From a virus, in the IMG/VR virus record IMGVR_UViG_3300036719_005587, positions 1 through 40,065 of that record: a DNA stretch of 40,065 nt; one strand, given 5' to 3'. The position numbers were made by a program, and so were the translations under genes. Of this stretch, positions 426-23,589 are shown in pieces. The notes beneath the pieces are model-generated. The model did no database searches and was not told the origin of the DNA. It saw only the letters and a list, made by a program, of their open reading frames with translations. The first letter of the stretch is position 1; every line of letters begins with the position of its first letter.

Positions 426-1466
426 TTATTCTTCTTCCCCCGCCACACACCAGATACGCTTCAGCGGCAATTTACTTCGGACCTCCTCGTCCAGGCGGTC
501 GTATGCCGCCAGCAGGTTTGAAATCAGCGTATCACGATTCCATAGACGGACCCTGAAAAACTGGGCTGCCCGTTCCTTCTCGATGGTCTGCTTGAATCCG
601 CCCCAACTTACGAGAAGCCCATGCTGTGCTTGATGGTTCTGCATCGTGCCGACGAGTTGATCGAGCACGACTCTTTCCACTGGGGAATCCCCGGATTTCA
701 CCTGGACGCAGATTCTCGGCTGACCGAACCCGAGGCCGCCCGGTGCCGCCAATAGGTCAACCCCGTTGTCGGGTCCCTCTGGTGGTTGGTGGACGACATA
801 CCCCTCAGTTTCGAGGATGGCTTTCACCAATGAGGCCAGCCCGTGGCCCTTGAATTTGGCCAAAATGAGCTTGGAAATCTGATCGTAAGCGGTTGTTTCT
901 AGGTCGATTGAACCCGGCTGAAGATCTTCTGCGCCAGTTTCCACTCCGGCGGCGAGAGTCGCCTTGGATACGGCTGGGACAATCCACTTGTTTGCGGCCA
1001 TCTCCTTGATCCGCGCCTCGGCATTGTTGCGCTGAATTTGGCAAACAGTGAGAAACGCCCCAAATGAATAGAGGATGTCCTGGTCGAACCTGTCACGAGG
1101 GATGTCCTGGGCAAACCACTCCACTTTTCTCGAATTGCGGTAAATGTCCTCGGCACTGGCATCATATTCGCACGGGCCAACGACCTTCCCAAAGTGGATT
1201 GTGGGGTTGAACTTACTGGGCAGGGCAATCCAATCCCCTGGCTGGATCGCCCGGCAGAATTGCATCCCCTGTCTGGCCCAATTCTGAACCGCCCCCTTGC
1301 TCGCCTCGGGGTAAATCTCGCCGAAAAGCCCGTAGTATGACGGAAGGTCATGCGCATCCTTCAGGTCCATCGCCATGCCGCTCCAGGTGAAGTAGATTCG
1401 ACCGTCGTTGAGAAATTTCTGCTCGTGCTGGCCTTGGCGGCCGGAGCGGGTAAGGAAAAGTGCCAT
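426..1466 (-). CDS. Mrr-like restriction endonuclease
   Basis: A 346-residue protein whose C-terminal third carries the Mrr-type PD-(D/E)XK nuclease signature: Glu220 in an ETEGY context, Asp237 in NGVDLL, and Gln255-x-Lys257 in CVQVKSG, followed by a helix-rich tail. The N-terminal half (LTRSGRQGQHEQKFL) matches the leader domain seen in many restriction-system proteins. Mrr-family enzymes usually cut modified DNA as type IV restriction, so it could act against foreign methylated DNA. I chose the ATG at 1466 because the conserved N-terminus begins there and an AGAGG lies just upstream; a longer frame to 1658 is open but its sequence looks non-coding. It is divergent from the methyltransferase pair. 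Confidence 0.8.
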   Translation of the reverse strand: MALFLTRSGRQGQHEQKFLNDGRIYFTWSGMAMDLKDAHDLPSYYGLFGEIYPEASKGAVQNWARQGMQFCRAIQPGDWIALPSKFNPTIHFGKVVGPCEYDASAEDIYRNSRKVEWFAQDIPRDRFDQDILYSFGAFLTVCQIQRNNAEARIKEMAANKWIVPAVSKATLAAGVETGAEDLQPGSIDLETTAYDQISKLILAKFKGHGLASLVKAILETEGYVVHQPPEGPDNGVDLLAAPGGLGFGQPRICVQVKSGDSPVERVVLDQLVGTMQNHQAQHGLLVSWGGFKQTIEKERAAQFFRVRLWNRDTLISNLLAAYDRLDEEVRSKLPLKRIWCVAGEEE

Positions 1467-1722
1467 GAGGCCTCTACAATTGCCGTATTCCCACGAATCT
1501 GCAAGCGTCCAAGTGAGCCCTAAAGAGGCCGCAGAGGAGCGGATTAAAGGGCTTGGCAAATCCGCATGTGGAGCTACCATGACGCTGATAAAATCTATGC
1601 CAAATCCCCTAAAATATCTTACTCCTAATCGAAATCCGTGAACTTCCGCTCTCCCCACTCACGCCCCGCCTCAAAGGCAGGTCAAGAAAGCCGACGCCAG
1701 AAGCAGATTCTGGTGGAGAAAA

Positions 1723-1752
1723 TTGAGCCAGTGGGCATGTTGCCAGACTAAT
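1723..1752 (+). promoter_or_regulatory. weak sigma70-like promoter candidate
   Basis: TTGAGC (1723-1728) and ACTAAT (1747-1752) are separated by 18 bases and lie 22 bases before the first methyltransferase start, each matching the consensus at four of six positions. The remainder of the 308-base divergent gap (1467-1774) shows no other clear signal. This is a weak match by eye. Confidence 0.25.
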
Positions 1753-1774
1753 AGGAAAGGGTAGCCTCCTCAAA

Positions 1775-2698
1775 ATGACCAAGACCGAATTATTTCAAAA
1801 TCCTGAGACTGAGACTCGCGGCGCGCCGCCGAAGTCCGAGAAATCTATTGTTCAGCCGGATTTGCCGCTACTTCAAAGCAGCCCCCCTAAACTACAACCA
1901 GTTAGCGTGGGAGGTTTTGAAACCCAAAAGGTTTATCATGGCAACTTTATTGAGCTAGCCGCACAACTTCCTGACCAGAGCGTTGATTTAATCATAGCTG
2001 ACCCCCCTTACAACGCCAGCAAGGGTAATGCGCTCTCGATGCAGTCGCGAGCCCTGCCAGGGACGGGCGGTGCTTGGAATAAAATCGCCGAGGTCTGGGA
2101 CGACATGAGCCTTGAAGATTATATGGCATTTACTCTGAGTTGGCTAAGTGAAGCCCGCCGCGTCCTAAAGCAGACTGGTTCGATGTGGGTGCACGGAACC
2201 TATCATAGCGCTGGCATTACTAATGTCGCCATGCAGATGCTCGAAATCGAAATCATAAACGAGATCGTCTGGTATAAGCGCAATAGCTTCCCAAACCTTG
2301 CTGGCCGTCGCTTAACTGCTAGCCATGAGACCATCTTGTGGGCGCATCGTGGGGGGGGCAAGCGCTCTTATCGCTTTAATTACGAATACTCAAAGATTGG
2401 CAATTTTTCTGACGATGTTCTGAAAGCTCCAGGGAAACAAATGCGCACTGTATGGGATTTGCCAAACAACAAACCCCGGCACGAACAGGCACACGGAAAG
2501 CATCCCGCTCAGAAGCCGGTGCGTCTTGCCCGCCGGTTCATCCAGCTATCTGCTGGACCAGGCGACCTGTGTCTTGTGCCGTTCGCGGGTTCGGGCAGCG
2601 AATGTGTCGCGGCTCAAGAAGAAGGGCTGCACTTTATCGGTTTTGATACCGATAAATCTTACGTCGAAATAGCACTTGCTAGGCTCAATGGGGTATGA
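1775..2698 (+). CDS. DNA N6-adenine methyltransferase, beta class (DpnA-like)
   Basis: A 307-residue DNA methyltransferase. Catalytic motif DPPY lies early (residues 76-79, IIADPPYN) and the SAM-binding FAGSG motif lies near the C-terminus (270-274), which is the beta-class order. KHPAQKP before the FAGSG region is typical of N6A/N4C enzymes. The overall layout resembles DpnA/M.HinfI-type enzymes that methylate adenine. Residues 1-50 form a proline-rich, probably disordered leader. It overlaps the next methyltransferase by four bases (ATGA), so the two are probably co-translated. Its base composition is noticeably more AT-rich than the phage genes, a sign of separate origin. The recognition sequence cannot be read from the protein. 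Confidence 0.88.
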   Translation: MTKTELFQNPETETRGAPPKSEKSIVQPDLPLLQSSPPKLQPVSVGGFETQKVYHGNFIELAAQLPDQSVDLIIADPPYNASKGNALSMQSRALPGTGGAWNKIAEVWDDMSLEDYMAFTLSWLSEARRVLKQTGSMWVHGTYHSAGITNVAMQMLEIEIINEIVWYKRNSFPNLAGRRLTASHETILWAHRGGGKRSYRFNYEYSKIGNFSDDVLKAPGKQMRTVWDLPNNKPRHEQAHGKHPAQKPVRLARRFIQLSAGPGDLCLVPFAGSGSECVAAQEEGLHFIGFDTDKSYVEIALARLNGV

Positions 2699-3585
2699 AA
2701 ATGATCGCACAAAACTTACCCTTATTCGAACAGGAGGATATGCCGGTTTCTCAGATGACTAAGGAAAGTCATTCATCGAATGGTGATGTGCCTTCTCTCC
2801 TTAAATGGACAGGGAGCAAGCGTAGCCAAGCCGTGCGTATTGCTGCCCTAGCACCCACTCACAACCGCTATTATGAGCCTTTTCTAGGTGGTGGCGCGTT
2901 AATGTTCATGCTTGGCAAACCTGGTGATGTTGGGGCTGACATTTACGCCCCTTTAGTTGCGTTCTGGAACCTGGTGCGTGATGACTCCGAATATCTTATC
3001 GCTAACTACACCAAGCAATGGGAAGCTTTACAGGCAGACTTGCCAGGTTATTTTTACATTGTGCGTGATCGCTTCAACGTCGAGCAGAAGCCTGAAGATT
3101 TGAACTTTCTAATGCGAACCTGCGTCAACGGCATAGTTCGGTTTAGCAAGAGCGGGCACTTCAATAATTCGTTTCATTTGTCGCGAAAGGGTATGCTTCC
3201 GCAGCGTTTCGCCAAGATTGTTCGGGAATGGTCTATTCATCTAAAGGGCATTGAATTTCGCAATGGAGACTTTGAGCGAACCACGGCTGACGCTAAAGCT
3301 GGAGACTTTATTTATCTCGATCCTCCATACGCAGGGAATAAACAGCGCTACATCGGCGATCTCGACGTAGACCGCTTTTATCAATTACTCGAAGAGTTTA
3401 ATCGTCGGGGAGTAAAATGGGCGTTATCGTTTGACGGCGCACGCGGCAACATTACCTACGACTATAAACTCCCGACTGAGATCTACAAGCGTAAGGAAGT
3501 CTTGAGCAGTGGCTACAGTGCCGTCGCCAAAGTGCTTAACGGCCCCGTGGAGATTGTTACAGAGAGCCTATACCTCAACTACTAA
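2695..3585 (+). CDS. DNA N6-adenine methyltransferase, alpha class (Dam/D12 family)
   Basis: A 296-residue D12-class adenine methyltransferase. It shows the SAM-side motifs KWTGSK (37-42) and EPFLGGGA (61-68), then the catalytic DPPY at 209-212, the alpha-class order shared by Dam and DpnM. A 30-residue N-terminal extension precedes the conserved core. It starts inside the stop of the beta-class methyltransferase. Paired alpha plus beta adenine methyltransferases are known from DpnII/MboI-like systems, where one copy protects double- and the other also single-stranded DNA; they also occur where the two strands of an asymmetric site need separate enzymes. Which applies here is unknown. Its 3' end overlaps the oppositely oriented endonuclease gene by 11 bases. 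Confidence 0.9.
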   Translation: MKMIAQNLPLFEQEDMPVSQMTKESHSSNGDVPSLLKWTGSKRSQAVRIAALAPTHNRYYEPFLGGGALMFMLGKPGDVGADIYAPLVAFWNLVRDDSEYLIANYTKQWEALQADLPGYFYIVRDRFNVEQKPEDLNFLMRTCVNGIVRFSKSGHFNNSFHLSRKGMLPQRFAKIVREWSIHLKGIEFRNGDFERTTADAKAGDFIYLDPPYAGNKQRYIGDLDVDRFYQLLEEFNRRGVKWALSFDGARGNITYDYKLPTEIYKRKEVLSSGYSAVAKVLNGPVEIVTESLYLNY

Positions 3586-5578
3586 GCTTTAGCGTTACAA
3601 ATTTTCCCCAATTTGAAAGAGAGGCGAGATGTCTGACGAGCGTTTTGCCCTTGGGCGTGTCGCCTCTCAGATGTAAGATGCAGGTCTTTCCTTCTTGCGT
3701 AAACTCCACGCCAATTTGTATATCGAGATTAGTGCCCTCAGGGACGCTATTAAATGGGTTAGTTGATGCTGCTAAGTAAGCGCCCGCCGAGATGTAAGTG
3801 AGATTTGGGCAATTCCAATCGTCGTTGTAGATCGCCCAGGGTGTGAGCTTCTCGGCGCGATGGATACTGGGTGGGCTTTCAAAAAGCACCTCCGTGTAGC
3901 GGGTCAATCGTGGGCCAATATTATCATCGAGCGAACGTGAAAATTCTTTCGATTCAATGCAAAGGCAAATTGGATGGACGCCGTGTCCGAATAAAGCGAA
4001 AACATGGTCAGGTCGCTTTGCCCCCTCGGCCGACACACGGGGAAGAGTTAGCCAGCGATGCTCCGCTTCTGCCTTGGCCCAACGGAAGGATATGCCCGAC
4101 CAGTCGCCGCCTGGCGGATTACACATGCCCTCAAAAACAATGTCTGACCCTAGTGACTCAAAAGCGACGTGTAAAGCTGTGTCGACGTCCTGTTCGCCAA
4201 AGCTCCGCACCTTAGCTTCAACGTGCAATGGTATGTTCTCTTCCTTTAGCGCCGCAGCCCAAGCGTCTTTCAAGTAGCCTCTTGGTGTTCCTTCGGGCTT
4301 GGTTGAGCTATCGACCAGCACTGCATCGCTTACCCCAAGAACAGCCTCCCACAGTCCGTTACGTCCTGCTAAGGCCACTGGGTCGCGCGCGAGGTCGGTC
4401 CAATGCGTCCGTGGCGCAGGACCATAAACGAAAGTCATTAAGTCGCAGTCGTCGCCTATGAGCATGCGTGCGAGCGGGGGAAGGCCACGGTCTGGTCGTG
4501 CGTCGTCGCCGCGTGGCTTAAACCCCATTACCCACGAGATTGCGAGATGCTTGTCTGCTGCTGCGAGCCACTTCTCAAAACCCGCGCTCATGTCGGGATA
4601 AAGTGACTTTGCTCTAGCGGCAAACCGCCGTCTGTGTTCTTTTGGCACGAAGGATAAAGGCAGTGCTGTTGAAGTCAGTCCGAGGCTAAAGCTTGCCCCC
4701 AATCCCATGAATAGTTTTGCGCTAGCCGTTAGGCCGTCAATATAGGCTGTCTTTTTCCATGCCAAATGCGCGTCACGGTTGAGGAAGTCCGGCAAGCTTT
4801 CACCAGCCATCACCGCATCGTAAGCCAATTGCCATTGATCTCCGCTGAGACCGTCTTTGCGCTTTTTTGAGTCGGCTAGCAACTTTACGAGGGAGACGCA
4901 CTTGTCGCCAAGATCAGAAGCCGCCTGTCGTGTGTCTTGCCCGAGAACAGCAAGTTTGAGGAACTCCAGAAACTCGGTTTTACCAAAAATTGACTGGAAG
5001 TGTTCGATTGTTTGGTCGGTTGCGCCAGCGTTTGGCTCATAGACCGGCAGACATACCGAGCCTTGATATTGTGTCATCGCGAAGAAACTGAAAGGGATAG
5101 CCGGATTGGGCATCCGCTCTGCCTTGCGACCACGGTCTGCATCAAGCTCAAAACCGCCAAGCTCTGCAACGTAGAAATATGGCACCTCAGCATGAGCGAA
5201 AGAAAACGCCCTGCCCTGTCGCTGCCACGCTTGATTGCCTGCTGGCAGTGCGCCACAGAATTCAATTGCAGCAACTGGTTGTTCTTTGCCATCCACTATA
5301 AGCGTCACGATGGCATCGGCAGCTTCACGAAGTCTTCCTCCAGATCGTTGAATGAAAGCAAGGACATCTTGATTCCAGCGACGATCTCCGTATCCTGGAA
5401 GGAACTGAAAGTGGAGTTCTTGGTCCCTGAGACGAACGACATAGACTGGGCATGTGACCGAATTTAGGGGACCTGCAATCTCAGCGGTAAGATCACCCAG
5501 GCCACTGACTATGTAGTCAAACGCTCTTACACATTCGACGATGTTGTCCCCGTGGATATTAAATTTCTTTCGATTCAT
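3575..5578 (-). CDS. large putative type II restriction endonuclease
   Basis: A 667-residue protein with no family I can name. Near residues 523-544 it has a good PD-(D/E)XK pattern: Pro-Asp (KRPDHVFAL), 18 residues, then Glu-Ser-Lys (CIESKEF). Earlier, AAIEFCGALPAGNQAW (about 103-118) resembles a second acidic nuclease-like strand but has Cys where Lys is expected. Its position, convergent with two adenine methyltransferases, makes a cognate endonuclease the best reading. It is far larger than DpnII-type enzymes (under about 300 residues). I prefer the ATG at 5578, with GGAAG 10 bases upstream, over a TTG at 5593. An alternative is a nuclease of another defence type that happens to sit here. 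Confidence 0.6.
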   Translation of the reverse strand: MNRKKFNIHGDNIVECVRAFDYIVSGLGDLTAEIAGPLNSVTCPVYVVRLRDQELHFQFLPGYGDRRWNQDVLAFIQRSGGRLREAADAIVTLIVDGKEQPVAAIEFCGALPAGNQAWQRQGRAFSFAHAEVPYFYVAELGGFELDADRGRKAERMPNPAIPFSFFAMTQYQGSVCLPVYEPNAGATDQTIEHFQSIFGKTEFLEFLKLAVLGQDTRQAASDLGDKCVSLVKLLADSKKRKDGLSGDQWQLAYDAVMAGESLPDFLNRDAHLAWKKTAYIDGLTASAKLFMGLGASFSLGLTSTALPLSFVPKEHRRRFAARAKSLYPDMSAGFEKWLAAADKHLAISWVMGFKPRGDDARPDRGLPPLARMLIGDDCDLMTFVYGPAPRTHWTDLARDPVALAGRNGLWEAVLGVSDAVLVDSSTKPEGTPRGYLKDAWAAALKEENIPLHVEAKVRSFGEQDVDTALHVAFESLGSDIVFEGMCNPPGGDWSGISFRWAKAEAEHRWLTLPRVSAEGAKRPDHVFALFGHGVHPICLCIESKEFSRSLDDNIGPRLTRYTEVLFESPPSIHRAEKLTPWAIYNDDWNCPNLTYISAGAYLAASTNPFNSVPEGTNLDIQIGVEFTQEGKTCILHLRGDTPKGKTLVRHLASLSNWGKFVTLKLSS

Positions 5579-5820
5579 CAGCAATCTTCCCAAAGAGGTT
5601 CAAATTCGCGGCAAAATGTCGCATAGTCAACAAAAACACCCTTCCTATCCTCTCGACCTTTGGGCTTTATGGCTATCTTCTTTGTTTTTGCGCCAAAATT
5701 CCGTTATTTTTGAGCAAAATTATGCCCGATTGGGTGAGCTCGCTGGAGACTTCCTCGTCCCGGTGTGCTTTGGGCCAAAATCTTTGTTGAGAGGTGGCCG
5801 CGATTCGAGATTATTGGCGC

Positions 5821-6653: not shown

Positions 6654-7643
6654 TCAGGGCGGAGAGATCAGCTCGTAGGTGGTGGTCACTCCGCTGCCGC
6701 TCACGTGTTTCAGGCGTTTGAGATCCGTCAAGCGGGCCAGAGCCACCTTCACTCGGTGCACGCTGAATGTCACCCCATCGCCAATTTGCCTGCGTGTGAG
6801 TCTGGGACGCCCATTAAAATGTCGTAAAATCGCGTCCGCGTCTTCCTCGATCTGGGGCTTTACTGGAGCGTCCAGCCCCTCGCGAACTGTGATCCAATGT
6901 TTGATACGATAACCATTCCCTGGTGGAGTCTCGATAATATCGTTTTTGTCACAATCCCATCCGGCAGCGCGCATTTTGTCGGAGCACTGTGTTCGAAATT
7001 CGTTGATCGCGCTCCTGATCGAGGCTTCACCAATGTTTCCCAGAGCTTCCGACAGGGCTTTTGCAGACATCCTGATACCCTTCTCCCCCGGTTTGGGGGC
7101 AAGCACTGTGAGCGCCCTGCGTATAATCGTTCCAGTTCTGTTCCCACCGATTTCAACGCCAGCTAAATCGAAGTGACTTTCGTGCGCGACCAATTCCCCG
7201 CCTTGGAACGGGCGCAGGGGACCCTGCGCTGGAGCCACCTCGGATACCCCGTTCCCGAGAACCTTCTTAATCTGAGTTTCGGGTGGATCCTCGTCGAAAG
7301 GTTTCATAATGAAGCCCTTCGCACCTTGCTGCATGACATCCCGGCAGAGGTTGTGCTGCCCCTTGCCGTGAGAGGTGATGATTATGATAGGCGGCGTTCC
7401 AGGCTGAGCAACCAGACGTTCAAGCAGTGCCAGACCAGTCTGGCGGCGGGTCGGCCCCTCCGGCTTCACGGGAATTTCAAGATCCAATAGAATGAGGTCG
7501 ATAGCGGTGTCACTTTTTTCAATAGCGGTCAGCGCGTGTTCGAGGCAATGCACAGACTCAGAATGATGTCCCAACGCGGCGATGCGATCCTCCAAGTCTT
7601 CGCACACGCCGTGTTCGTCGTCGATGATAAGAATGGTTTTCAT
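6654..7643 (-). CDS. response regulator with winged-helix output domain
   Basis: A 329-residue response regulator. Residues 1-125 are a receiver domain with acidic pair Asp8-Asp9, phospho-acceptor Asp54 (LILLDLEIP), switch Thr90 and Lys114 (FIMKPFD). Residues about 150-252 look like a PhoB/OmpR-type winged helix ending in the typical GNGYRIKHW wing, with an insert relative to the usual length. The C-terminal 60 residues (LTRRQIGDGVTFSVHRVKVAL) form a second helix-turn-helix. It should bind DNA when phosphorylated. It is the last gene of an operon, overlapping the histidine kinase by four bases, so the kinase is its probable partner. Possible target sites lie upstream of the operon at 10675-10703. 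Confidence 0.85.
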   Translation of the reverse strand: MKTILIIDDEHGVCEDLEDRIAALGHHSESVHCLEHALTAIEKSDTAIDLILLDLEIPVKPEGPTRRQTGLALLERLVAQPGTPPIIIITSHGKGQHNLCRDVMQQGAKGFIMKPFDEDPPETQIKKVLGNGVSEVAPAQGPLRPFQGGELVAHESHFDLAGVEIGGNRTGTIIRRALTVLAPKPGEKGIRMSAKALSEALGNIGEASIRSAINEFRTQCSDKMRAAGWDCDKNDIIETPPGNGYRIKHWITVREGLDAPVKPQIEEDADAILRHFNGRPRLTRRQIGDGVTFSVHRVKVALARLTDLKRLKHVSGSGVTTTYELISPP

Positions 7644-8713
7644 GCTGAGAGATTGGATGCATCCAAGATGGGAAGAACAACGGATGCGGTGGTGCCTTTA
7701 TCCTCACGACTATCCATGCCCAATCGCCCTCCGTGAGCGCTGATATACCGATTGCATAGGGGCAGACCGTAGCCGGAACCTCCTCGTTTGGAGGTTTTTC
7801 CGGGGACAAAGTTCAGTAGCCCATCGAGATCGACTTGGGACAAACCATGCCCAAAGTCCTGAATGTGAATACGGATGTGCCCTTCAATAACATCTCCTCC
7901 GATCTTAACTTTGCCAGGAAGGATTTTGCCATCCTTTCGCCCGTGGGCCTCTATGGCATTTTTGATGAGATTGCTAAAGGCGATAACGATTTCCAGGCGG
8001 GCAACTGAGAAATTCACCCCTTCCGGAATCCCGTTGATGACCTCGACCTTTGAATGATTAAATCCTTCATCCCAGATCTGTTCTCTTGCAGACACTAAGG
8101 ATTCTTCGATCACTTCGCGGATAGGTTCAGTCGATTTCTTAACGGTCAAAGGGGAAGTGTAATTGTCCATCATGTTGAGCATCCTACGCAGGTAATCTCG
8201 GCCGTTAGTGATTCTTTTCACATTGCGCTTGTGGATAGGATCTTTGAGTAGGTCGTCCGAAGGCCGGAGGTAGGTGATGATATTTCTGATGTCGTGTACC
8301 GCTGCCCGGATATGGAGTGCCGTGCTCTTTTCCGCCATTTCCCGTGCCGCTTCAGCCGCCTCCGGACCGAATCGGATTTTGATCTTCTCAAACTCATCGT
8401 GGAGCAAGCCCTCGTGACCCGGTTGCGAGCCTCCTAGTTGCCGACGCGAGATGGAACGCCTGATAGCGGCCTCAACCATTGCGTGAGTCTCGCCGGCCAT
8501 CTCTGCGGAGATCTGCTGGGAGATAGTCTCTGGTAGGGACGCGAGAGCCTCTGCCACCACTTTGCGTACCTCCCATTTAGAGTCTACCGCGAAAGCAATC
8601 ACCAGCGACAACGCTTCCTCGTCGTCATGGCGGGACGTTAGTAATCCACAAGCTTCGACGGCGGCTTCGCGGCGAAGCCGCCAGTCGGGGATGGTTGAGG
8701 GTTCAGTATTCAT
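7640..8713 (-). CDS. HEAT-repeat histidine kinase
   Basis: A 357-residue soluble sensor kinase. Residues about 10-90 form HEAT-like helical repeats (DDEEALSLVIAFAVDSKWEV). The dimerisation/phospho-acceptor helix has His140 in AVHDIRN. The ATPase domain has the N box NLIKNAIEA (248-256), G1 DFGHG (286-290) and G2 GGSGYGLPL (311-319). There is no transmembrane segment or PAS domain, so it senses something inside the cell, probably through the HEAT repeats. The ATG at 8713 overlaps the end of the ATPase gene by 11 bases; a longer frame to 8809 lies wholly within that gene. The tight overlaps on both sides imply that ATPase, kinase and regulator are made together. Confidence 0.87.
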   Translation of the reverse strand: MNTEPSTIPDWRLRREAAVEACGLLTSRHDDEEALSLVIAFAVDSKWEVRKVVAEALASLPETISQQISAEMAGETHAMVEAAIRRSISRRQLGGSQPGHEGLLHDEFEKIKIRFGPEAAEAAREMAEKSTALHIRAAVHDIRNIITYLRPSDDLLKDPIHKRNVKRITNGRDYLRRMLNMMDNYTSPLTVKKSTEPIREVIEESLVSAREQIWDEGFNHSKVEVINGIPEGVNFSVARLEIVIAFSNLIKNAIEAHGRKDGKILPGKVKIGGDVIEGHIRIHIQDFGHGLSQVDLDGLLNFVPGKTSKRGGSGYGLPLCNRYISAHGGRLGMDSREDKGTTASVVLPILDASNLSA

Positions 8714-10601
8714 AAATTGGGCTGGCATACTTGGCGCTGCGCTTCTCAAAGGCTTCTTTTCCTCCTTCGAGTAAATCAACGATCTCGTTCCGGCAATCGT
8801 CAACGTCACCTGCAGTTGTCACGCTCCCGCTCAATCCATCGGATTGCATCACAATAACTCGTGAGGCCTCGCCCAGAACGGGGATATTGGGGTTGTGGGT
8901 GACGAAAATCAGTTGTCGCAGGGGCTTCACCGATTTCAGTGCGGATACTACCGTATCGTAAATGAACCTATTGTCGAGATTGTCCTCCGGTTGGTCGATG
9001 ATCAGCGGGGTGTTGCCCTCCCAAAGCAGAATTGGCAGGATCGCGGTGCATTTCTGACCGGTGGAGAGGCTGCCGGAATCCTTGTAGATGCCGTTGTCAC
9101 AGAGTTCAATGGTGGGCACTTCGTTCATGTCCACGATCTGCAGTTCGAGGAGGCGAGGCAGAGCGGACAGTTCGCGAATGACGGCTTCGGCCTGCTGCTT
9201 GCTGATTCCGCCCCGATTGGCAAGATTCGTCACGTCGTTCGACTTAATCAGGTCGGCCAGTTCGTCGGGGGAGATTTCTTTGCTGAGCGAGGCGGATACC
9301 TTTTTGTGTTGGATTCCGGCCTCCTTGAGCACCGTTTCGAGGAATACGCGGTAATCCTCCTGATCCGCGCTCTGGGCGACACGGATTCGGATGATGGGGT
9401 TGAGGCGGCTGTTGAGCCGCTCGGCAACCGAATGACGGATGGCGAATCGCTCGTCCCGCACTTCGGAGAGTTTCGCCCGCATCTCCACCCGTTCGATTTC
9501 AAGACCTCTAATCTCCAAATCAACCTCGGTGAGCCGCCGCTGGCGGAACAGCAGTTCGTTGTGCTGCTTTTCCAGTTGGGTGCGTTCGGCAGACTTGGCC
9601 AGATCCTGTTCTTGTTTCTCAATAATGCAGCGGAACTGAGTCTCTTGGATAATGTGAGCTAGATCGATGTCCCACTTGTGCTGGGCAATTTTTCCTGCGG
9701 CCTCGTCCATGGCGGCTACAGCTAAGGCAAGCGATAGCTCGGCTTGGGCGATGGAGTCATTGGCGTCGGACATGGCTTTGGAGAGAATCTCCGCATTTGG
9801 TCCCGCCATGATGTCCGGGGTGAAGAAGGGCATCACTGCCTCTGACAAGCGCCCGAGCCAGGGCCTGAAACCATCTGCAGAGGATTTGAGTTTTTCTATG
9901 GAATGGCTCAAAGCCATAGATTCCCTGCCTCGAAGCGCTTTGAGCGCATGGGCGCGGTTGATTTCCTCCGTGTTTTGGCCTGTTAGTGCGTCAAAAGCTT
10001 TGAGCTTTTCGACGATTGACTCCACTTGGCTTATCGCACCTTCGAGATTCTGCTTCTCGGTAACTAGGGGAAGAATCCGTGCGCTGTTGGCTTCGAGCAG
10101 GTGCTTCACGTCGCTCACGCGCTGGGAAACCGCCGCGAGTTTTTCAACCTCGAACCCGTCGATGAGGTCAAGTTGGTAACGGGGGTTCTCCGCGATGCCC
10201 TCAATTTGATTTTGGCTATACACGGACGCACCGAATATGTGGTTGACGGAAACGCTGGGCGGCAACGGCAATCCATCCGAATTCGTGATCGTGGCTTCTT
10301 CTCCAGCCGAGCGGTTGATCGTGTAGGTTATGCCGTCTTTAGTTTCGACAGTCAGTTCCACACGCCCCCCTGCCAGGTTTTTTTCGATCATCGAGGTCAC
10401 ACGCTTGCGCAGCGGGTCGCCTTCCCGTCCGGGCATCACGTTCAATCCGTGACGGATGTTCTCGACGACAGTGCTTTTTCCACTCCCGCGGGAACCGATG
10501 ATCGTGTTGAGTTGATGGTGAAATTTAAGGTCGAGTCCAGAAAGGAACCCTCCAGTGACCTTAATGCGGCGTATGCGGTGGTATGACGGTTGCTGATTCA
10601 T
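8703..10601 (-). CDS. SMC/TrlF-like ABC ATPase with coiled coil
   Basis: A 632-residue ABC-type ATPase. Walker A is GSRGSGKST (36-44); the signature LSTGQK lies at 512-517; Walker B with its DQPED extension is at 535-540, followed by DNRF and a THNPNIPVLG switch region near 568. Between them are about 300 residues of helical, probably coiled-coil sequence, so it looks like an SMC/RecN-class protein. The C-terminal signature strongly resembles TrlF-family ATPases, but no PHP nuclease domain is fused. Such proteins usually sense DNA or nucleoprotein states. It is the first gene of an operon with the HEAT kinase and response regulator. The ATG at 10601 is the start of the conserved region; a longer frame exists to 10661. 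Confidence 0.85.
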   Translation of the reverse strand: MNQQPSYHRIRRIKVTGGFLSGLDLKFHHQLNTIIGSRGSGKSTVVENIRHGLNVMPGREGDPLRKRVTSMIEKNLAGGRVELTVETKDGITYTINRSAGEEATITNSDGLPLPPSVSVNHIFGASVYSQNQIEGIAENPRYQLDLIDGFEVEKLAAVSQRVSDVKHLLEANSARILPLVTEKQNLEGAISQVESIVEKLKAFDALTGQNTEEINRAHALKALRGRESMALSHSIEKLKSSADGFRPWLGRLSEAVMPFFTPDIMAGPNAEILSKAMSDANDSIAQAELSLALAVAAMDEAAGKIAQHKWDIDLAHIIQETQFRCIIEKQEQDLAKSAERTQLEKQHNELLFRQRRLTEVDLEIRGLEIERVEMRAKLSEVRDERFAIRHSVAERLNSRLNPIIRIRVAQSADQEDYRVFLETVLKEAGIQHKKVSASLSKEISPDELADLIKSNDVTNLANRGGISKQQAEAVIRELSALPRLLELQIVDMNEVPTIELCDNGIYKDSGSLSTGQKCTAILPILLWEGNTPLIIDQPEDNLDNRFIYDTVVSALKSVKPLRQLIFVTHNPNIPVLGEASRVIVMQSDGLSGSVTTAGDVDDCRNEIVDLLEGGKEAFEKRSAKYASPIYEY

Positions 10602-10617
10602 CTTGGTTCGACTTTGT

Positions 10618-10631
10618 GCGTCTTCTGACGC
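10618..10631 (-). promoter_or_regulatory. small stem-loop in the operon leader
   Basis: GCGTC (10618-10622) and GACGC (10627-10631) form a perfect 5-bp hairpin with a four-base loop, 17 bases upstream of the ATPase start. It could affect translation of the operon, but this is only a structural observation. Confidence 0.3.
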
Positions 10632-10673
10632 CCTGTCTCCCGAAAACGGGGCTTTCCCCACATCGGGTTACAA

Positions 10674-10703
10674 ACCCTACGCAAACCCTATGTGCGCCCT
10701 ATG
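10674..10703 (-). promoter_or_regulatory. three phased heptamer repeats, candidate response-regulator operator
   Basis: The plus strand reads ACCCTAC at 10674, ACCCTAT at 10685 and GCCCTAT at 10696, each separated by four bases, so the spacing is exactly 11 bp. PhoB/OmpR-family winged-helix regulators bind such 7+4 direct repeats on one face of the helix. The array lies 73-102 bp before the ATPase start, within the 297-base gap shared with the divergent phage gene, and an inverted ATAGGGT copy sits at 10746-10752. Autoregulation by the operon's own response regulator is an inference. Confidence 0.5.
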
Positions 10704-10776
10704 GGCCTCCGAGATCGGTTCTATGTGGGGGTCGCAAGGCGATGAATAGGGTGCCATAGCCCCCATGTGGGTGTGA

Positions 10777-10797
10777 GCAGGCTATTCCGCAGCCTGC
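10777..10797. promoter_or_regulatory. operator-like palindrome
   Basis: GCAGGCT (10777-10783) and AGCCTGC (10791-10797) are perfect inverted repeats around a seven-base spacer. The palindrome lies in the divergent gap, about 100 bp before the phage gene at 10899, where an early-promoter operator would be expected. No cognate repressor is visible. Confidence 0.35.
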
Positions 10798-10898
10798 CGA
10801 CAGATTTGCGATGGTGCGTCACTGTCTTCGGGTCGCTCGGATGTCCCGGGCTTCCGGCCCCCGGACCGATTTCCGGCAATCGAAATCAAAACATCATC

Positions 10899-11252
10899 AT
10901 GTCTACCGAAAAAGTGCATTTGAAGCCGCAGTGCAGCGGCAATTATCGCGGCCTTCCCGCCGCACGCCAAAAACTCCTGCGTCTCATGCAGGAAAACCCG
11001 TTTAGCCGAATTGAACATCTCGCCGTCGTAAACGGTGAGCCTCAGTTCGAGCAGACGACCAAAGTCATTGCCGAGCACAAGTTCGGAGCCAATGACGGCC
11101 CGCGCCGCGAGGCCGAACTCACTGACTTCGTTTTGAAGAAGGAGCACATTGAGCTTTTCAAGCGGCTCGAAGTCGTTGGGAGCGGAGTGATTCTCGCGCT
11201 CGAAGTCCGTGGTGGCATGCCGTTCCGCATGCAAAGCGAAGTGGCCGCATAA
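10899..11252 (+). CDS. hypothetical early phage protein
   Basis: A 117-residue protein I do not recognise. It is charged and soluble (FSRIEHLAVVNGEPQF, AELTDFVLKKEHIELFKRL) and without cysteine clusters or membrane segments. It is the first plus-strand gene of the replication region and is divergent from the ATPase-kinase-regulator operon. The ATG at 10899 follows a CA-rich leader without a Shine-Dalgarno sequence, as do most phage genes here. A terminator-like hairpin follows it at 11293-11350, so it may form its own transcript. A small DNA-replication or regulatory accessory role would fit the position but is not shown. Confidence 0.6.
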   Translation: MSTEKVHLKPQCSGNYRGLPAARQKLLRLMQENPFSRIEHLAVVNGEPQFEQTTKVIAEHKFGANDGPRREAELTDFVLKKEHIELFKRLEVVGSGVILALEVRGGMPFRMQSEVAA

Positions 11253-11292
11253 GCCGTCTCATCATCTAACAACCAGACAACTGGCCGGGCCT

Positions 11293-11350
11293 AAGGGGCA
11301 GGTCGTTGTGGGTGTCGCATTAGCGATCTCACGACGGCTTGCCCCTTTTT
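11293..11350 (+). terminator. rho-independent terminator
   Basis: AAGGGGCA (from 11293) pairs with TGCCCCTT (ending 11347), with further imperfect pairing inside (GTCGTTGTG with CACGACGGC), and a run of five T follows. It separates the gene at 10899 from the sigma-factor gene. Confidence 0.6.
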
Positions 11351-11428
11351 CATTCCCGGCACCATCCGCCCTGACGCCATCCGCGCCACCCCAATCGACC
11401 CCTTTTAACGCCCGGCCGCCAAGGCCGG

Positions 11429-11989
11429 ATGAAAACTAACAACTACGCGGGAATCGACCCGCACATCGTCACCGTCATTACACGGGAGGCACGCAGACTT
11501 GTCGGACGCTACGGCTACACCTTCTCCGACATCGAAGACATCGAGCACGAGCTATTCCGTAAGGTATGGACCGCGCTGCCGGGGTTGAGCACGTCCGTAT
11601 TCGAGGCGGCCATCAATCAAATCGTAAATCACGAGATCATCGACATGATCCGCAAACGTGAACGCGACTGCCGTGACTGGCGACAAGTGGCGTTCTCGAT
11701 TGACGCCCAGAACGAGGATGACGACCTCGAAAGCTACGCGGACATCCTCGACGAGGATCTACTGATTGGCTTCGGATACTCGCCCTCGTGGCAGTCGCGC
11801 CGCTGGGAGCAAGCGGATGTCGCGGAAGGCATGGCTCGCCTTCCCGGCGATCTCCGGGACTTGGCTGAAACGCTCGACGCCTGCGGCGGCAACCTCAGCG
11901 AGGCTGCCCGCATGATGGGTGTCTCGCGCAAGAAAGCCCGCATCCTGTCGAAGCGCCTCCGCGAGGCGATGGCATGGCTGCGTGAATAG
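11429..11989 (+). CDS. RNA polymerase sigma factor, ECF-like
   Basis: A 186-residue sigma-70-family protein. The N-terminal part has the region-2 pattern (YTFSDIEDIEHELFRKVW) followed by a helix leading to IIDMIRKRERD, the usual linker start. The C-terminal part has a region-4-like helix-turn-helix (LSEAARMMGVSRKKARIL, about 160-177). The central acidic linker (DDDLESYADILDEDL) is longer than in minimal ECF factors. In a phage early region it would redirect host RNA polymerase to phage promoters. The start ATG at 11429 follows a CA/GC-rich leader. It is preceded and followed by terminator-like hairpins, so it appears to be a single-gene unit. Confidence 0.8.
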   Translation: MKTNNYAGIDPHIVTVITREARRLVGRYGYTFSDIEDIEHELFRKVWTALPGLSTSVFEAAINQIVNHEIIDMIRKRERDCRDWRQVAFSIDAQNEDDDLESYADILDEDLLIGFGYSPSWQSRRWEQADVAEGMARLPGDLRDLAETLDACGGNLSEAARMMGVSRKKARILSKRLREAMAWLRE

Positions 11990-12004
11990 CTATTCCAGAT
12001 TACG

Positions 12005-12036
12005 TCACCCGCTCCGGTTCGCTGGGGCGGGTGATC
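12005..12036. terminator. stem-loop after the sigma-factor gene
   Basis: TCACCCGC (12005-12012) pairs perfectly with GCGGGTGA (12027-12034). There is no strong T tract. It lies 15 bases after the sigma-factor stop and could terminate from that side or from the convergent zinc-ribbon gene. Confidence 0.45.
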
Positions 12037-12087
12037 TGCTTAGAACAATATGCATGCGAGATTGCGTGGCAGTAGACTATTACCCCA

Positions 12088-12366
12088 CTACGTTGGCAGT
12101 GAGTCAATTTTGATTCGCTCCGCGCCTTTATGGAGAAATTTACCCACAATCTCCCATTCATTTTTGCATGAAGGGCAATCCATTTCATACGACCATTCGT
12201 CGTGCCCGTATGTGCTGTTGGGGTTGACTTCGACGCAGACATCCAAAATCGCGCCCTGTCCACAGGGACACTTGCAGCAATGACTCTTTGTTTCTCTTGG
12301 CGCTCCCATAGTTCGACTGCTTTGTAGAACGACAATAGCTGAAGCCGAAATCGGGTCAATCGGCAT
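12088..12366 (-). CDS. small zinc-ribbon protein
   Basis: A 92-residue protein with two cysteine pairs: CKCPCGQG (with a further Cys and His just before) and CPSCKNEW, about 35 residues apart. This is the layout of a zinc ribbon. It may bind nucleic acid or be a structural protein; no catalytic motif is seen. It is the only minus-strand gene between the sigma factor and the helicase and its base composition is more AT-rich than its neighbours, which suggests a separately acquired gene. The start is uncertain: ATGs at 12366 and 12309 and a TTG at 12408 are possible; all keep the cysteine motifs. Confidence 0.6.
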   Translation of the reverse strand: MPIDPISASAIVVLQSSRTMGAPRETKSHCCKCPCGQGAILDVCVEVNPNSTYGHDEWSYEMDCPSCKNEWEIVGKFLHKGAERIKIDSLPT

Positions 12367-12438
12367 TATGATTTTGAGACGAGGAAACGAATCTGAAAGA
12401 GGGGCCAATAACCCGTCATCGCAACGCAGTTGGAGGCT

Positions 12439-13773
12439 ATGGACCTCCTACCATTCCAACGAGAACACGCCCGCAGGGTGATTGATGCTCTTCGCCGCCA
12501 CCGCACGGCTCTCGACGCAAGTGACCCCGGCGTGGGAAAAACTTATGTCGCATCCTACGTCGCCAAGACGACCGGCCTGTCCTTACTCGTGATCTGTCCG
12601 AAACCCGTGCTTCCGGCGTGGCGAAAAGTTACCGCTGCCTTCGATGCTCCTGTGACGAAGATCACCAACTTCGAACAGATCCGTTTGGGCAAAACCCCAT
12701 TCGGCAGGTTCGTGGATAAGCGGTTCGTCTGGTCGGTGCCAACCGGCACGCTGCTGGTTTTTGATGAGGCTCAGAAGTGCAAAGCACGCGACAGCCTGAA
12801 TGCTGAGATGATGATCGCCGCGAAACGGCAGGGCATCCCCACCTTGTTGTGCTCTGCGACGGCTGCCTCGAATCCGTTAGAGATGCGAGCCATCGGCTAC
12901 GCGCTCGGCCTCCACCGGCTACACGACTATTGGCCGTGGGCGATCAACCACGGCGTCCAGAAAGGCCGCTTCGGGATGGAGTTCAATGGCGACCATGATG
13001 CGCTCTGGCGGCTCCATAGTCAGATATTCTCCCCCGGTGGTCCCGGCTCGCGCCTGCGGATTGCTGACATCCCGGAGTTCCCCGAAAGCCAGATCATTGC
13101 CGAGCCGGTCGCTACCGGGGAGGAGCGGAAAATCCAGAGGATTTACGATCAGATGGCGAGTGATCTCAACAAGGCGCTCGCGGTCGAAGATCATGACGAG
13201 TTGTATGACCTGGCCGTCCGGATGGACGCCACCAAGGCGAACCATCTGACCATATCGCTGCGGGCGCGGCAGCAGATCGAAACGCTCAAGGCCAAGACCA
13301 TCGCGGCGATGGCGAAGGACGCTGCGGACGAAGGCATGTCCGTCGCGGTGTTCGTGAACTTCGACGAGTCCATCGACGAGGTTGCCAAGTTGTTGAAAAC
13401 CTCGTGCGTCATCCGTGGTGGCCAGCGTGATGCCGACCGCGAACAAGCAATCCGCCGTTTCCAGGCGAATCAGGAAAATTTCATCGTCTGCAACATTCGC
13501 GCCGGTGGCGTAGGTGTCAGTCTCCACGACCCGACCGGTTGCAAACCGAGGCTCGCGCTGATTTCGCCTACCTATTCCGCGCAGGATCTACGACAGGCGT
13601 TGGGGCGTGTCCACCGGGCGGGCGGTGCCCACTCGATCCAGCGGATCATCTTTGCCGCCGATACGGTTGAGGAACGGGCGTGCGAGGTGGTGGCCGCCAA
13701 GCTGGGTCACATCGACTTGCTCAACGACGGAGATCTTCAGGGCCAATTTCTGATGCCCGCAACGCAGGAGTGA
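12439..13773 (+). CDS. SF2 (SNF2/DEAD-like) DNA helicase
   Basis: A 444-residue superfamily 2 ATPase. The N-terminal RecA-like domain has a Q-motif-like LLPFQREHARRVIDAL, Walker A PGVGKT (30-35), motif II DEAQ and motif III SAT. The C-terminal domain has NIRAGGVGVSL (motif V) and QALGRVHRAGG (motif VI with arginine fingers). This is the compact helicase common in phage replication modules. It is followed after two bases by a RecB-like nuclease gene. The ATG at 12439 is preferred; an in-frame TTG three codons earlier is possible. It probably unwinds or remodels DNA during phage replication or recombination. Confidence 0.87.
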   Translation: MDLLPFQREHARRVIDALRRHRTALDASDPGVGKTYVASYVAKTTGLSLLVICPKPVLPAWRKVTAAFDAPVTKITNFEQIRLGKTPFGRFVDKRFVWSVPTGTLLVFDEAQKCKARDSLNAEMMIAAKRQGIPTLLCSATAASNPLEMRAIGYALGLHRLHDYWPWAINHGVQKGRFGMEFNGDHDALWRLHSQIFSPGGPGSRLRIADIPEFPESQIIAEPVATGEERKIQRIYDQMASDLNKALAVEDHDELYDLAVRMDATKANHLTISLRARQQIETLKAKTIAAMAKDAADEGMSVAVFVNFDESIDEVAKLLKTSCVIRGGQRDADREQAIRRFQANQENFIVCNIRAGGVGVSLHDPTGCKPRLALISPTYSAQDLRQALGRVHRAGGAHSIQRIIFAADTVEERACEVVAAKLGHIDLLNDGDLQGQFLMPATQE

Positions 13774-13775
13774 GT

Positions 13776-14882
13776 ATGGACACAATCACATCCACTCCCG
13801 CCGAGGATCGGCCGCACGCCGAACACTCGCCAAGTTCCCTCGCGCTCAAGGAAGTCTGCCCCGGATTCCGATCAGACTCGAAATCATCCTCCGCCAGTGA
13901 GGAAGGCACCCGATGCCACCAAGCACTGGAAACCGGCAAGGACGACGGGCTGGATGATGAACAACTCCAGGTTGTCGGGATGTGCCGCGACTACGTGACC
14001 GGCGTCGAAGCCGACGCTCGTTCCCATGGAGAGGTCACGATCTTGCTAGAAGAGAAGTTAGCCATCGCGGGTGGCCTGACATTCGGCACCGCCGACCTGG
14101 TGATCGTTTCGGCCAAGGCAACTGCCGCCGATCTGGTCGATTACAAGTTCGGACGCAACCCGGTCGCCGACGCTGAGGATAACGTGCAGATGCAGGCATA
14201 CGCCCTCGGAGTGTTCGAGAAGTTCCCCGGCGTCCAATCCATCCAAGTCCATATCCTACTGCCCCGCCGCGACGAGGTTTCCATAGCCACCTACGCGCGA
14301 TCGGATGTGCCGCGCCTTCGACTACGAATTGAGACGATCATCGCCCGCGCATCCCTGCCAGAACCTGATCTCCATCCGACCGATGGGTGCCTGTGGTGTG
14401 CCCGGAAGGCGACGTGCAAGGCGCTTCATAACCACGCCCTGACACTTGCGTCAGGCTACTCCGACGAGCTTGTCATCCCCGACCAGGTCCACGCCTCCCA
14501 CATCACCGAACCGTCCGTGATGGCGCGAGCGCTCCAGGTCGCCCGTGTGATGGAGAAGTGGTGCGAAAGCGTGCGACAGCACGCGCTCAAAATGCGCCTC
14601 TCGGGTGTTGAGATTCCCGGTCACGAACTGCGGACGCGGTCGGGCAACCGCAAGATCAACGATGCCTTGGCCGCGTGGGGCGTGGTTCGCGACCACATCG
14701 AACCCGACCGCTTCATCGCGTGCTGCGATGTCAGCCTCACAAAGCTGGAAGACGAGGTGGCGGCCAAAGCCCCACGGGGGAGCAAGACCAAGGCGAAAAA
14801 CAATCTCTGCGAATCCCTCGCCGCAGTCGGTGCCTACGAGGCCGGCGGCGAATCGACATTTCTCACCCGAACACGCAAGTGA
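13776..14882 (+). CDS. DUF2800-type PD-(D/E)XK nuclease with cysteine cluster
   Basis: A 368-residue RecB-like nuclease of the DUF2800 phage family. Nuclease residues visible are His48 (GTRCHQALE), Asp107 (GTADLVIV) and Asp122-x-Lys124 (LVDYKFG). Cys28, Cys205, Cys208 and Cys214 are arranged as one distant cysteine plus a C-x2-C-x5-C group flanking the nuclease core, the pattern of the iron-sulphur staple in AddB and Cas4 enzymes. It probably processes DNA ends together with the helicase just upstream. AGGAG lies eight bases before the ATG at 13776, one of the few clear Shine-Dalgarno sequences among the phage genes; the longer open frame is not needed. Confidence 0.8.
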   Translation: MDTITSTPAEDRPHAEHSPSSLALKEVCPGFRSDSKSSSASEEGTRCHQALETGKDDGLDDEQLQVVGMCRDYVTGVEADARSHGEVTILLEEKLAIAGGLTFGTADLVIVSAKATAADLVDYKFGRNPVADAEDNVQMQAYALGVFEKFPGVQSIQVHILLPRRDEVSIATYARSDVPRLRLRIETIIARASLPEPDLHPTDGCLWCARKATCKALHNHALTLASGYSDELVIPDQVHASHITEPSVMARALQVARVMEKWCESVRQHALKMRLSGVEIPGHELRTRSGNRKINDALAAWGVVRDHIEPDRFIACCDVSLTKLEDEVAAKAPRGSKTKAKNNLCESLAAVGAYEAGGESTFLTRTRK

Positions 14883-14927
14883 ACGGGCAACCAAAAAACA
14901 ACATAACAACAACAGAAAACTACGAAC

Positions 14928-15665
14928 ATGCTAACATCGTTCAAACGCCAAGAAGGGGTCGCTCCGGCGACCATCGCTGAATCCGCACAACCGGCCAACC
15001 CGGTTGCGGAAGACATCCAAGATCACGAGGAAACGTCGCTTTCCTCGCTGCCAACCCGCCCGCTGGAAGGTGAGTTTTTGCCGCAGGATTTCGTCCTGCC
15101 GCGTCTCAACCTCGTCCAGTCGGTCGGCCCGCTGTCGGAGACGTTCCAACCCGGAGCCTTCGTCTATAACAAGGAGGCCACGTTGTCGGACGGCACCCAG
15201 CCGGTGTCACTGACCGTGCTGCGAATCCGCAAGCAATACCAAGAATACGTTGCCTATGGTGGCGAGGAAATGCCCCGCGTGTTCGACACCCTGGAGGAGG
15301 TCCGCGCTGCTGGCGGCTGGATCGACTGGCGTGACAACCAACGCCCGCCGTATTCGCCCATCCTTAACGCGCTGGTGCTGGTGAAGTCCCCGTTCCCGGA
15401 ACACCCGATGTTCCCGCACCGCTTCGGTGAGGCCGACTACGGGCTGGCTCTCTGGACACTGCGCTCCACCGCGTTCACGCGTGCGGGCAAGGCGATCATC
15501 ACCGCCTCGCAGTTCGCGCTGCGCGATGGGATCCACCTCGGCGAATGGGCGCTGACTTCCCGCCGCGAAAAACTAGGCATGAACTTCGTCCACGTCCCGG
15601 TGCTTCGTCACGGAGCACGTCACAACGACGAGTTTGCCGCATTCGCCCTCTCGCTCGTCGGGTAA
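14928..15665 (+). CDS. phage replication accessory protein, possibly single-strand DNA-binding
   Basis: A 245-residue protein. After a disordered acidic N-terminus (about 1-45) comes LPRLNLVQSVGPLSETFQPG, a pattern I associate with a family of phage replication-cluster proteins of unclear function. The rest is beta-rich with aromatic residues (YQEYVAYGG, GGWIDWRDNQRPPY). It occupies the slot between DUF2800 nuclease and DNA polymerase where many phages keep a DUF2815-type single-strand-binding protein. That role is inferred from position. The start at 14928 follows a very CA-rich leader (aacaacagaaaactacgaac) with no Shine-Dalgarno sequence. A perfect terminator-like hairpin follows 13 bases after the stop. 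Confidence 0.6.
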   Translation: MLTSFKRQEGVAPATIAESAQPANPVAEDIQDHEETSLSSLPTRPLEGEFLPQDFVLPRLNLVQSVGPLSETFQPGAFVYNKEATLSDGTQPVSLTVLRIRKQYQEYVAYGGEEMPRVFDTLEEVRAAGGWIDWRDNQRPPYSPILNALVLVKSPFPEHPMFPHRFGEADYGLALWTLRSTAFTRAGKAIITASQFALRDGIHLGEWALTSRREKLGMNFVHVPVLRHGARHNDEFAAFALSLVG

Positions 15666-15678
15666 GCCAACAAAGCAC

Positions 15679-15710
15679 GACCGGCAGGGGCCAATCCCTG
15701 CCGGTCTTGT
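15679..15710 (+). terminator. perfect 11-bp stem-loop
   Basis: GACCGGCAGGG (15679-15689) and CCCTGCCGGTC (15696-15706) pair perfectly around a six-base loop, followed by TTGT. It may act as a terminator or as an attenuator that lowers expression of the polymerase genes relative to the upstream genes. Confidence 0.6.
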
Positions 15711-15723
15711 CGCAGTTGGTGGT

Positions 15724-16101
15724 ATGGCCCACCACAAACCGAAGAAACCAAGTCCGGCCTCCGTATCCTCGACCCACCGTGAATTGCTCGCGTATCTGGT
15801 TCGTGCGGGGGAATTGAATGTCGAATGGAAGGTCGCGCAGCGCACGGCTCTTGTTAGTACCTGCCTGCCGAAATCGGCTCGCCTGGCAATCGCGCTGGTA
15901 GCATCGCGCGCGCAATCGAAATGCGTGGCGGTCGCCGATGCCGTGATCCCCGGGATGCTGTGCCTGGTGCGCGGCGATCACCAGCAGGCCACGCGACTTC
16001 TCCGCTCATGCGATGGTCACATGGCCTTCCTCTCGGCTGCCGACCGCACGGTCGCCGCCGTCATCCGCAAATCCACATCCCGCACCCGCCATGGCAACTG
16101 A
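15724..16101 (+). CDS. hypothetical protein
   Basis: A 125-residue basic protein (HKPKKPSP at the start, RKSTSRTRHGN at the end) with an alanine-rich helical middle. I do not recognise it. Its last 11 bases overlap the start of the DNA polymerase gene, which supports it as a real, translationally coupled gene. An internal helix-turn-helix-like portion may exist around AVADAVIPGMLCLVRGDHQQATRLL but is not convincing. A DNA-binding accessory to the polymerase is possible from charge and position only. Confidence 0.5.
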   Translation: MAHHKPKKPSPASVSSTHRELLAYLVRAGELNVEWKVAQRTALVSTCLPKSARLAIALVASRAQSKCVAVADAVIPGMLCLVRGDHQQATRLLRSCDGHMAFLSAADRTVAAVIRKSTSRTRHGN

Positions 16102-20025: not shown

Positions 20026-20160
20026 ACCCCTCGTGGGACACATTGAAGTGTCCCAAAACCGACGTGTCCCTGCAACGTGTCCCACCCTGCAACCCTTGTG
20101 CGGCAATGGTTCCAGCAGATTAGGGACACGTGGACACGTTGCGCGGCGAAATCCATCCCT

Positions 20161-20218
20161 CGTGCGTGCGCATGTGCGCGTGCGCGCGCGCGCCCGCATA
20201 CATACATACATATACATA
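20161..20218. other. alternating purine-pyrimidine tract (Z-DNA-prone)
   Basis: From 20161 to 20193 every step alternates pyrimidine and purine, mostly CG and TG; after a two-base break the alternation continues to 20218 as CATA repeats. The first half could adopt Z-DNA under negative supercoiling and the second half is AT-rich and easily melted. Confidence 0.8.
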
Positions 20219-20282
20219 GTGTCCCTAGTGTCCACGTGTCCCAATCCCTTTTACCGCAAGGGTTTCCGGGTGGGACACGTTT

Positions 20283-20306
20283 GGGACACTAGGGAGCTAG
20301 TGTCCC
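20283..20306. promoter_or_regulatory. perfect 10-bp inverted repeat of two iterons
   Basis: GGGACACTAG (20283-20292) and CTAGTGTCCC (20297-20306) are exact reverse complements around a four-base spacer. The element lies 22 bases before the next gene's start, so it may be both part of the origin and an operator or leader hairpin for that gene. Confidence 0.6.
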
Positions 20307-20328
20307 ACCTCGGAAGGGAGGAATCCCG

Positions 20329-20865: not shown

Positions 20866-20867
20866 CC

Positions 20868-21473: not shown

Positions 21474-21505
21474 ACCCGAACCACAACCACAAACCACCTG
21501 AGATC

Positions 21506-21700
21506 ATGTCTGACTTCTTCTCCTATCTATTCGTCACCATCGGCTTCTGCGCCACCATCTTCGGCACCGTTGCCGCCATATTCTGGGCGATAGATCGCTC
21601 CGACAAGGCAAAGCGGGAGCGCGATGAACGCCACCGGGAAGTGATCCGCAAGCTGGGTGACCTCGAACTTCGACTGAACATCGAAAAGGACAGCAAGTAA
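21506..21700 (+). CDS. small single-pass membrane protein
   Basis: A 64-residue protein with one hydrophobic segment (about residues 3-28, FFSYLFVTIGFCATIFGTV) followed by a highly charged helix (DKAKRERDERHREVIRKLGD) that probably forms a coiled coil in the cytoplasm. No lipobox or cleavage site is evident. Small membrane proteins of this kind in phage early regions are sometimes exclusion or anti-host factors, but this one is not recognised. The ATG at 21506 is preferred because the membrane segment begins right after it. Confidence 0.6.
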   Translation: MSDFFSYLFVTIGFCATIFGTVAAIFWAIDRSDKAKRERDERHREVIRKLGDLELRLNIEKDSK

Positions 21701-21706
21701 TCCAAT

Positions 21707-21778: not shown

Positions 21779-21792
21779 CTCACTCGATCATC

Positions 21793-22008: not shown

Positions 22009-22038
22009 TATTTTTTTTTAAGGTTTCCCACATAACGG

Positions 22039-22678: not shown

Positions 22679-22697
22679 GGCCGCTACGATCCACTTT

Positions 22698-23297: not shown

Positions 23298-23304
23298 TTC
23301 TACG

Positions 23305-23583: not shown

Positions 23584-23589
23584 GGCGGT

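Follow-up and report, generated by a model that had tools for sequence, protein, structure and literature searches.

Results

The sequence analysed, here called the window, is a 40-kb IMG/VR virus record that carries genes for a DNA polymerase, a terminase, a portal protein, a protease and a major head protein. The locus and its surroundings consist of the following features:

426 to 5593: flanking restriction cargo (Mrr-type nuclease, two adenine methyltransferases, type II endonuclease)
6654 to 7643, minus strand: response regulator of 329 aa with a receiver, a predicted OmpR/PhoB-type winged helix and a second predicted C-terminal winged helix
7640 to 8713, minus strand: soluble histidine kinase with N-terminal HEAT-like helices, a DHp domain with the HDIRN histidine, and an HATPase domain
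8703 to 10601, minus strand: SMC/RecN-like ABC ATPase of 632 aa, a PHP-less relative of TrlF (profile match and conserved motifs)
10602 to 10898: spacer separating the operon from the divergent first early gene
10657 to 10772: predicted operator array of ACATAGGGTT-type repeats at 11-bp spacing, plus inverted copies
10827: edge of the exchanged block, where DNA identity to the sister phage L075 starts and runs right to 23747
10899 to 11252, plus strand: first early gene, encoding a small protein of unknown function
11429 to 20025, plus strand: early/replication block (sigma-like protein, helicase, DUF2800-like protein, DNA polymerase, primase-like protein)

The ATPase, kinase and regulator are encoded by three consecutive ORFs on the minus strand, with an overlap of 11 bases between the first two and of 4 bases between the last two. 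The initial annotation had described this three-gene operon with the same overlaps, and only the ATPase start needs revision: the ATG at 10601 is preferred over the GTG at 10661, the stop being at 8703. The kinase ORF runs from the ATG at 8713 to a stop that overlaps the regulator ATG (7643).

The TrlF-family model (NF045780) matches the ATPase with an E-value of 1.9e-89 over profile positions 276-943 only. Because the match begins at position 276, the N-terminal PHP domain is absent, and the score of 302 bits is below the curated cut-off of 350 bits. Homology to the TrlF and Ppl proteins (PHP plus SMC-like ATPase) covers their C-terminal ATPase half. The Walker A (GSGKS), signature (LSTGQ) and Walker B (IDQPEDN) motifs are kept across the ATPase relatives. 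Long PHP-fused TrlF relatives (viral loci L003-L015) have no kinase or regulator gene nearby, unlike the operon ATPase, and were rejected as members of the system.

The kinase matches HATPase_c (E 5.7e-16) and, slightly below the Pfam cut-off, HEAT_2 (E 3e-5), in agreement with the earlier description of a soluble kinase carrying HEAT repeats; its structural model matches ZraS, HK853 and WalK. The receiver is the sole Pfam match of the regulator (E 2.4e-15). Its structural model matches MtrA, VanR, RpaA and KdpE in Foldseek over about 258 columns, with E-values down to 1e-10. The modelled fold is that of an OmpR/PhoB-type winged helix followed by an extra C-terminal winged helix, which is unusual. 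The phospho-accepting histidine of the kinase is kept in 11 of 11 loci and the N-box asparagine is invariant; Asp-9, Asp-54, Thr/Ser-90 and Lys-114 of the receiver are likewise kept in all 11. The predicted residues of a two-component system (His, N-box Asn, Asp, Thr/Ser and Lys) are therefore all present, and on sequence grounds every signalling residue of the window operon is intact. At two loci an additional receiver-only protein follows the regulator (L021:14065-14412 and L022:4022-4459), and at L020 a degraded receiver is fused ahead of a DUF262-like gene.

A genome-wide scan with the N-terminal half of the ATPase found relatives only in Verrucomicrobiota, and a viral scan added more. The operon is rare in host genomes, because only 7 of 388 sampled Verrucomicrobiota genomes exceeded the ATPase threshold, one of them with a long-type open frame of 910 residues. 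The regulator alone, used as query against viral contigs, found no relative. The order ATPase-kinase-regulator is constant in the 11 loci holding all three genes, and the pairwise identities of the three proteins correlate across these loci (r 0.88-0.97; Mantel 0/2000); judged from these comparisons, the three proteins evolve as a trio. The initial annotation had named two outcomes contrary to its reading, scattering of the genes in other genomes and residence of the ATPase in an unrelated housekeeping operon; we found neither.

The nearest named relative of the window phage is a prophage in Chthoniobacter flavus Ellin428 (Verrucomicrobiota), whose terminase and portal proteins are 60-69% identical to those of the window and which has the same three-gene operon. 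The window phage is of the temperate type and related to the C. flavus prophage. No integrase was found in the window, the contig being a fragment; a tyrosine recombinase is present in the L075 record and in the C. flavus prophage, and at L025 a serine recombinase is reached from the non-early side of the operon. Elsewhere in the phage genome, positions 23877-24776 on the minus strand encode a putative amidoligase (PF12224, E 2e-39).

In all phage loci with readable upstream sequence, the operon is divergent from, and adjoins, the early replication genes of the phage or phage-like element. It occupies the position of a repressor, being transcribed away from the replication genes, in every readable related phage locus. 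A search of seven operon-bearing phage records gave no S24-type repressor. HTH_3 matches over the cut-off were likewise missing near the operon and in the window, and the controls worked in both searches.

Short repeats occur in every group-1 spacer, and their sequence varies between phages. In the window alone the repeat signal is weak: the enrichment is modest, being equalled by 3 of 200 shuffles (9-mers, one mismatch), and across the window as a whole CCCTATGTGGG shows no enrichment (5 sites seen, 7.1 expected), four of its five sites lying within 115 bp. We therefore relied on a motif trained on other phages, namely L019, L020 and L024 only (19 sites in 900 bp). Within the full 40 kb of the window, the two best matches to this motif (10683-10693 and 10660-10670) are both in the spacer.

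Sites of this first class are concentrated in the spacers of the window, L019, L020 and L024; they are absent from the spacers of L002, L021, L023, L025 and L075, with one or two cross-matches in L026 and L027. A second class is concentrated in L002, L021, L026 and L027, and also in L075, which was outside the training set, with few matches in L024, L023 and the window. L023 and L025 have repeat arrays of their own sequence. The recognition helices and predicted operators pair as INEFR with CATAGGG, VRQIR with CCCATATGGG, IFQIRES with TCCAAGCTTGGA, and VKTFRKR with TGATACC. The predicted operator class thus follows the recognition helix of the regulator, in few and partly related alleles. The repeats are spaced by 11 bp in the window, L019, L020, L024 and L025, and no such spacing was seen for L023 or L075. 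A spacing of 11 bp is typical of OmpR/PhoB sites.

Comparison with the sister phage L075 gave the limits of this region. The two DNAs are 83-85% identical from 10827 to 23747 (13 kb) and the early proteins of L075 are 72-95% identical to those of the window, whereas left of 10827 nothing is alignable. The L075 operon is another allele, with protein identities of 41, 31 and 26% for the ATPase, kinase and regulator, and the operators change class along with it. Because DNA identity starts at 10827 and there is none leftward, the exchanged block comprises both the operators and the operon; it ends just beyond the operator array, ahead of the first early gene. A helicase search for further phages returned only L075 and L025, and these two and the window are three helicase-sharing phages with three different operon alleles.

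To survey the slot occupied by the operon, the AAA early gene that adjoins it in L002, L023, L024, L026 and L027 was used as query; 80 viral loci with this gene were fetched and the 63 with at least 1 kb upstream were counted. The slot held the operon in five loci, an XRE repressor with an M78/ImmA peptidase in 14, an XRE protein only in one, a pair of proteins (P384/P355) in 18, some on the other strand, and other genes in 25. XRE-ImmA is divergent from the AAA early gene in all but one of its 14 loci; Pfam confirmed the XRE and M78 domains in L080, and homology extended the assignment to the other loci. These counts are small (5 operon loci against 14 of XRE-ImmA), several of the contigs are fragments, and other or unidentified genes fill 43 of the 63 slots. 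The pair, of about 384 and 355 aa and without a Pfam match (L086:7544-9686; also L083, L087, L095 and others), takes the control slot in 18 phage loci lacking XRE-ImmA and follows XRE-ImmA in others. A further slot gene set, at L096:1-2348 (also L077 and L102), includes a DUF6932 nucleotidyltransferase-like protein.

Variants of the operon were also found. In group 2 (L060, L061 and L063), a shorter regulator is followed by an exonuclease-like gene, and a divergent WYL-type regulator lies between the operon and phage early or recombinase genes; the RNase_T and WYL assignments were tested in L060, a prophage in which this four-gene variant (ATPase, kinase, regulator and RNase_T exonuclease) with its WYL regulator spans 7855-13357. 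Divergent homologues of the first early gene of the window (10899..11252) adjoin WYL-type loci. A repeat array was looked for in the ATPase/WYL spacer of group 2 and was not found; in these loci the actual repressor could be the WYL regulator. On plasmids of Klebsiella, Leclercia, Caballeronia, Shinella and Rhodococcus, genes for a homologous PHP-less ATPase and kinase are followed, in the same order, by a gene for a receiver protein whose annotation reads response regulator or phosphotransferase (for example Klebsiella pKp46596-2, L055:11986-16131; L056-L059). These operons differ from that of the window in lying away from phage early genes and in their output: in the Klebsiella and Rhodococcus plasmids the receiver is fused to an APH-like/TCAD9 domain instead of winged helices. 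Some lie among toxin-antitoxin genes, and the plasmid operon is likely a defence or maintenance module. Because the plasmid relatives use a phosphotransferase-like output, the ATPase-kinase pair is not dedicated to lysogeny.

In several independent loci the operon has restriction or BREX genes on its downstream side. The cargo varies between all loci and has either orientation. It is DUF262-like and BrxL/PglZ-like in L020, type I R-M-like in L021 and L023 (these names come from reading ORFs by eye, not from a family search), and a PLD-helicase in L075. In the window, the Mrr-type nuclease (426-1658) matches the candidate defence model PDC-S02 (E 3e-134), and two adjoining methyltransferase genes (1775-3585) correspond to two halves of one fused type II methyltransferase model (PDLC03302, positions 5-260 and 351-626); the type II endonuclease gene (3575-5593) adjoins this pair.

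Discussion

We propose, with a probability of about 0.7, that the operon together with the spacer up to 10826 (10602-10826) constitutes the immunity, or lysogeny-control, region of a temperate phage and that a two-component system runs it. This reading draws on four observations taken together: the divergent position of the regulator relative to the early genes, the predicted operator array with its allele-specific classes, the exchange of operators and operon as one block with L075, and the occurrence of XRE-ImmA in the same slot of related phages. The initial annotation had suggested a defence or prophage-control switch; prophage control is strongly supported by these observations.

The following mechanism is plausible. 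The OmpR-like response regulator would act as the phage repressor or activator, binding the repeat array between the divergent promoters and thereby setting the expression of its own operon and of the early lytic genes. Phosphotransfer from the soluble kinase would determine the state of the regulator. The SMC-like ATPase would supply the signal, probably by contacting the kinase through the HEAT domain; as the protein families suggest, the ATPase would detect DNA and the kinase would pass the signal on. The most likely signals would be DNA ends or damage, or the DNA of an incoming phage. DNA ends or damage are preferred because the ATPase belongs to an SMC/RecN-like family, superinfection being the main alternative; that the ATPase senses DNA damage specifically is a tentative suggestion.

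The operon might be both a lysogeny switch and a response to superinfection, with the DNA of a second phage triggering induction or exclusion. The control-region position and the frequency of SMC-like ATPases of the same superfamily in phage defence are in accord with this, but DNA damage would serve equally well as the signal, and we regard this combination as rather unlikely.

Alternatively, the operon may be a phage-carried system of anti-phage defence or superinfection exclusion in a cargo hot spot, the ATPase sensing an invader and the kinase and regulator triggering the response. It is conceivable because restriction or BREX genes recur as neighbours (type II R-M and Mrr in the window, and the cargo of L020, L021, L023 and L075) and the plasmid versions resemble defence or stress modules, with their receiver-APH-like/TCAD9 fusions and, for some, toxin-antitoxin surroundings; the likeness of the ATPase to the Ppl, LmuB and AriA models and the RNase_T exonuclease and WYL regulator of group 2 point the same way. 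However, the output in the window group is a DNA-binding regulator without an effector domain, the exchanged block stops just past the operator array and before the first early gene, the operator class shifts with the operon allele, and XRE-ImmA takes the same slot in related phages, all of which make pure defence improbable. That the operon regulates the neighbouring restriction or BREX cargo and not the phage, as the place of the cargo downstream of the regulator in several loci might suggest, is highly improbable, since the cargo differs from locus to locus and has no fixed orientation, the operator array lies on the opposite side and faces the early genes, and in L025 there are only a few small genes from the regulator to the recombinase.

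The proposed immunity region can be compared with known systems. Heteroimmune lambdoid phages differ by exchange of the repressor together with its operators. The window operon resembles the lambda-type CI/Cro system in that the proposed repressor and its predicted operators are swapped between otherwise similar phages, but it has no CI/S24 protein and consists of three proteins including a kinase and an SMC-like ATPase. Detocs is a two-component phage defence system whose effector cleaves nucleoside phosphates. It shares with the operon a soluble histidine kinase and a receiver on mobile elements; however, no nucleoside-cleaving effector was found on the receiver protein by Pfam or in the model, and the predicted output is a tandem winged-helix DNA binder. 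ImmR/ImmA of ICEBs1 and phages is a known mobile-element switch, with six repressor sites in a divergent control region (PMC8960796). The window operon shares with it the slot, which XRE-ImmA takes in related phages, the divergence from the early genes and the presence of several sites, predicted in the case of the window, in the common spacer. ImmR/ImmA differs in pairing an XRE repressor with an M78 metallopeptidase that acts by proteolysis, whereas the window operon has no XRE or S24 protein nearby and a predicted phosphorelay.

In conclusion, a phage immunity region is of a known kind, and for the two-component mechanism we found no precedent in literature searches on phage two-component lysogeny switches, TrlF in phage defence and Verrucomicrobia prophage repressors, which covered few subscription journals. 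Known phage dormancy switches are one-protein repressors, cleavable or protease-controlled repressors, and peptide signals. We consider it somewhat probable that the operon represents a class of phosphorelay lysogeny switches in which an SMC-like ATPase is the sensor, alongside a HEAT-domain kinase and an OmpR-type repressor. Such a class would comprise four or more immunity types, each with its own operator specificity, and would interchange with XRE-ImmA, while its sensor half would recur on plasmids with a different output. If this is true, a two-component switch would let a phage decide gradedly and reversibly from a cytoplasmic sensor, and the phages of Verrucomicrobia would acquire a defined immunity locus whose specificity types can be tested. 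The common ATPase-kinase pair may then be a direct route to what SMC-like ATPases sense, across many defence systems.
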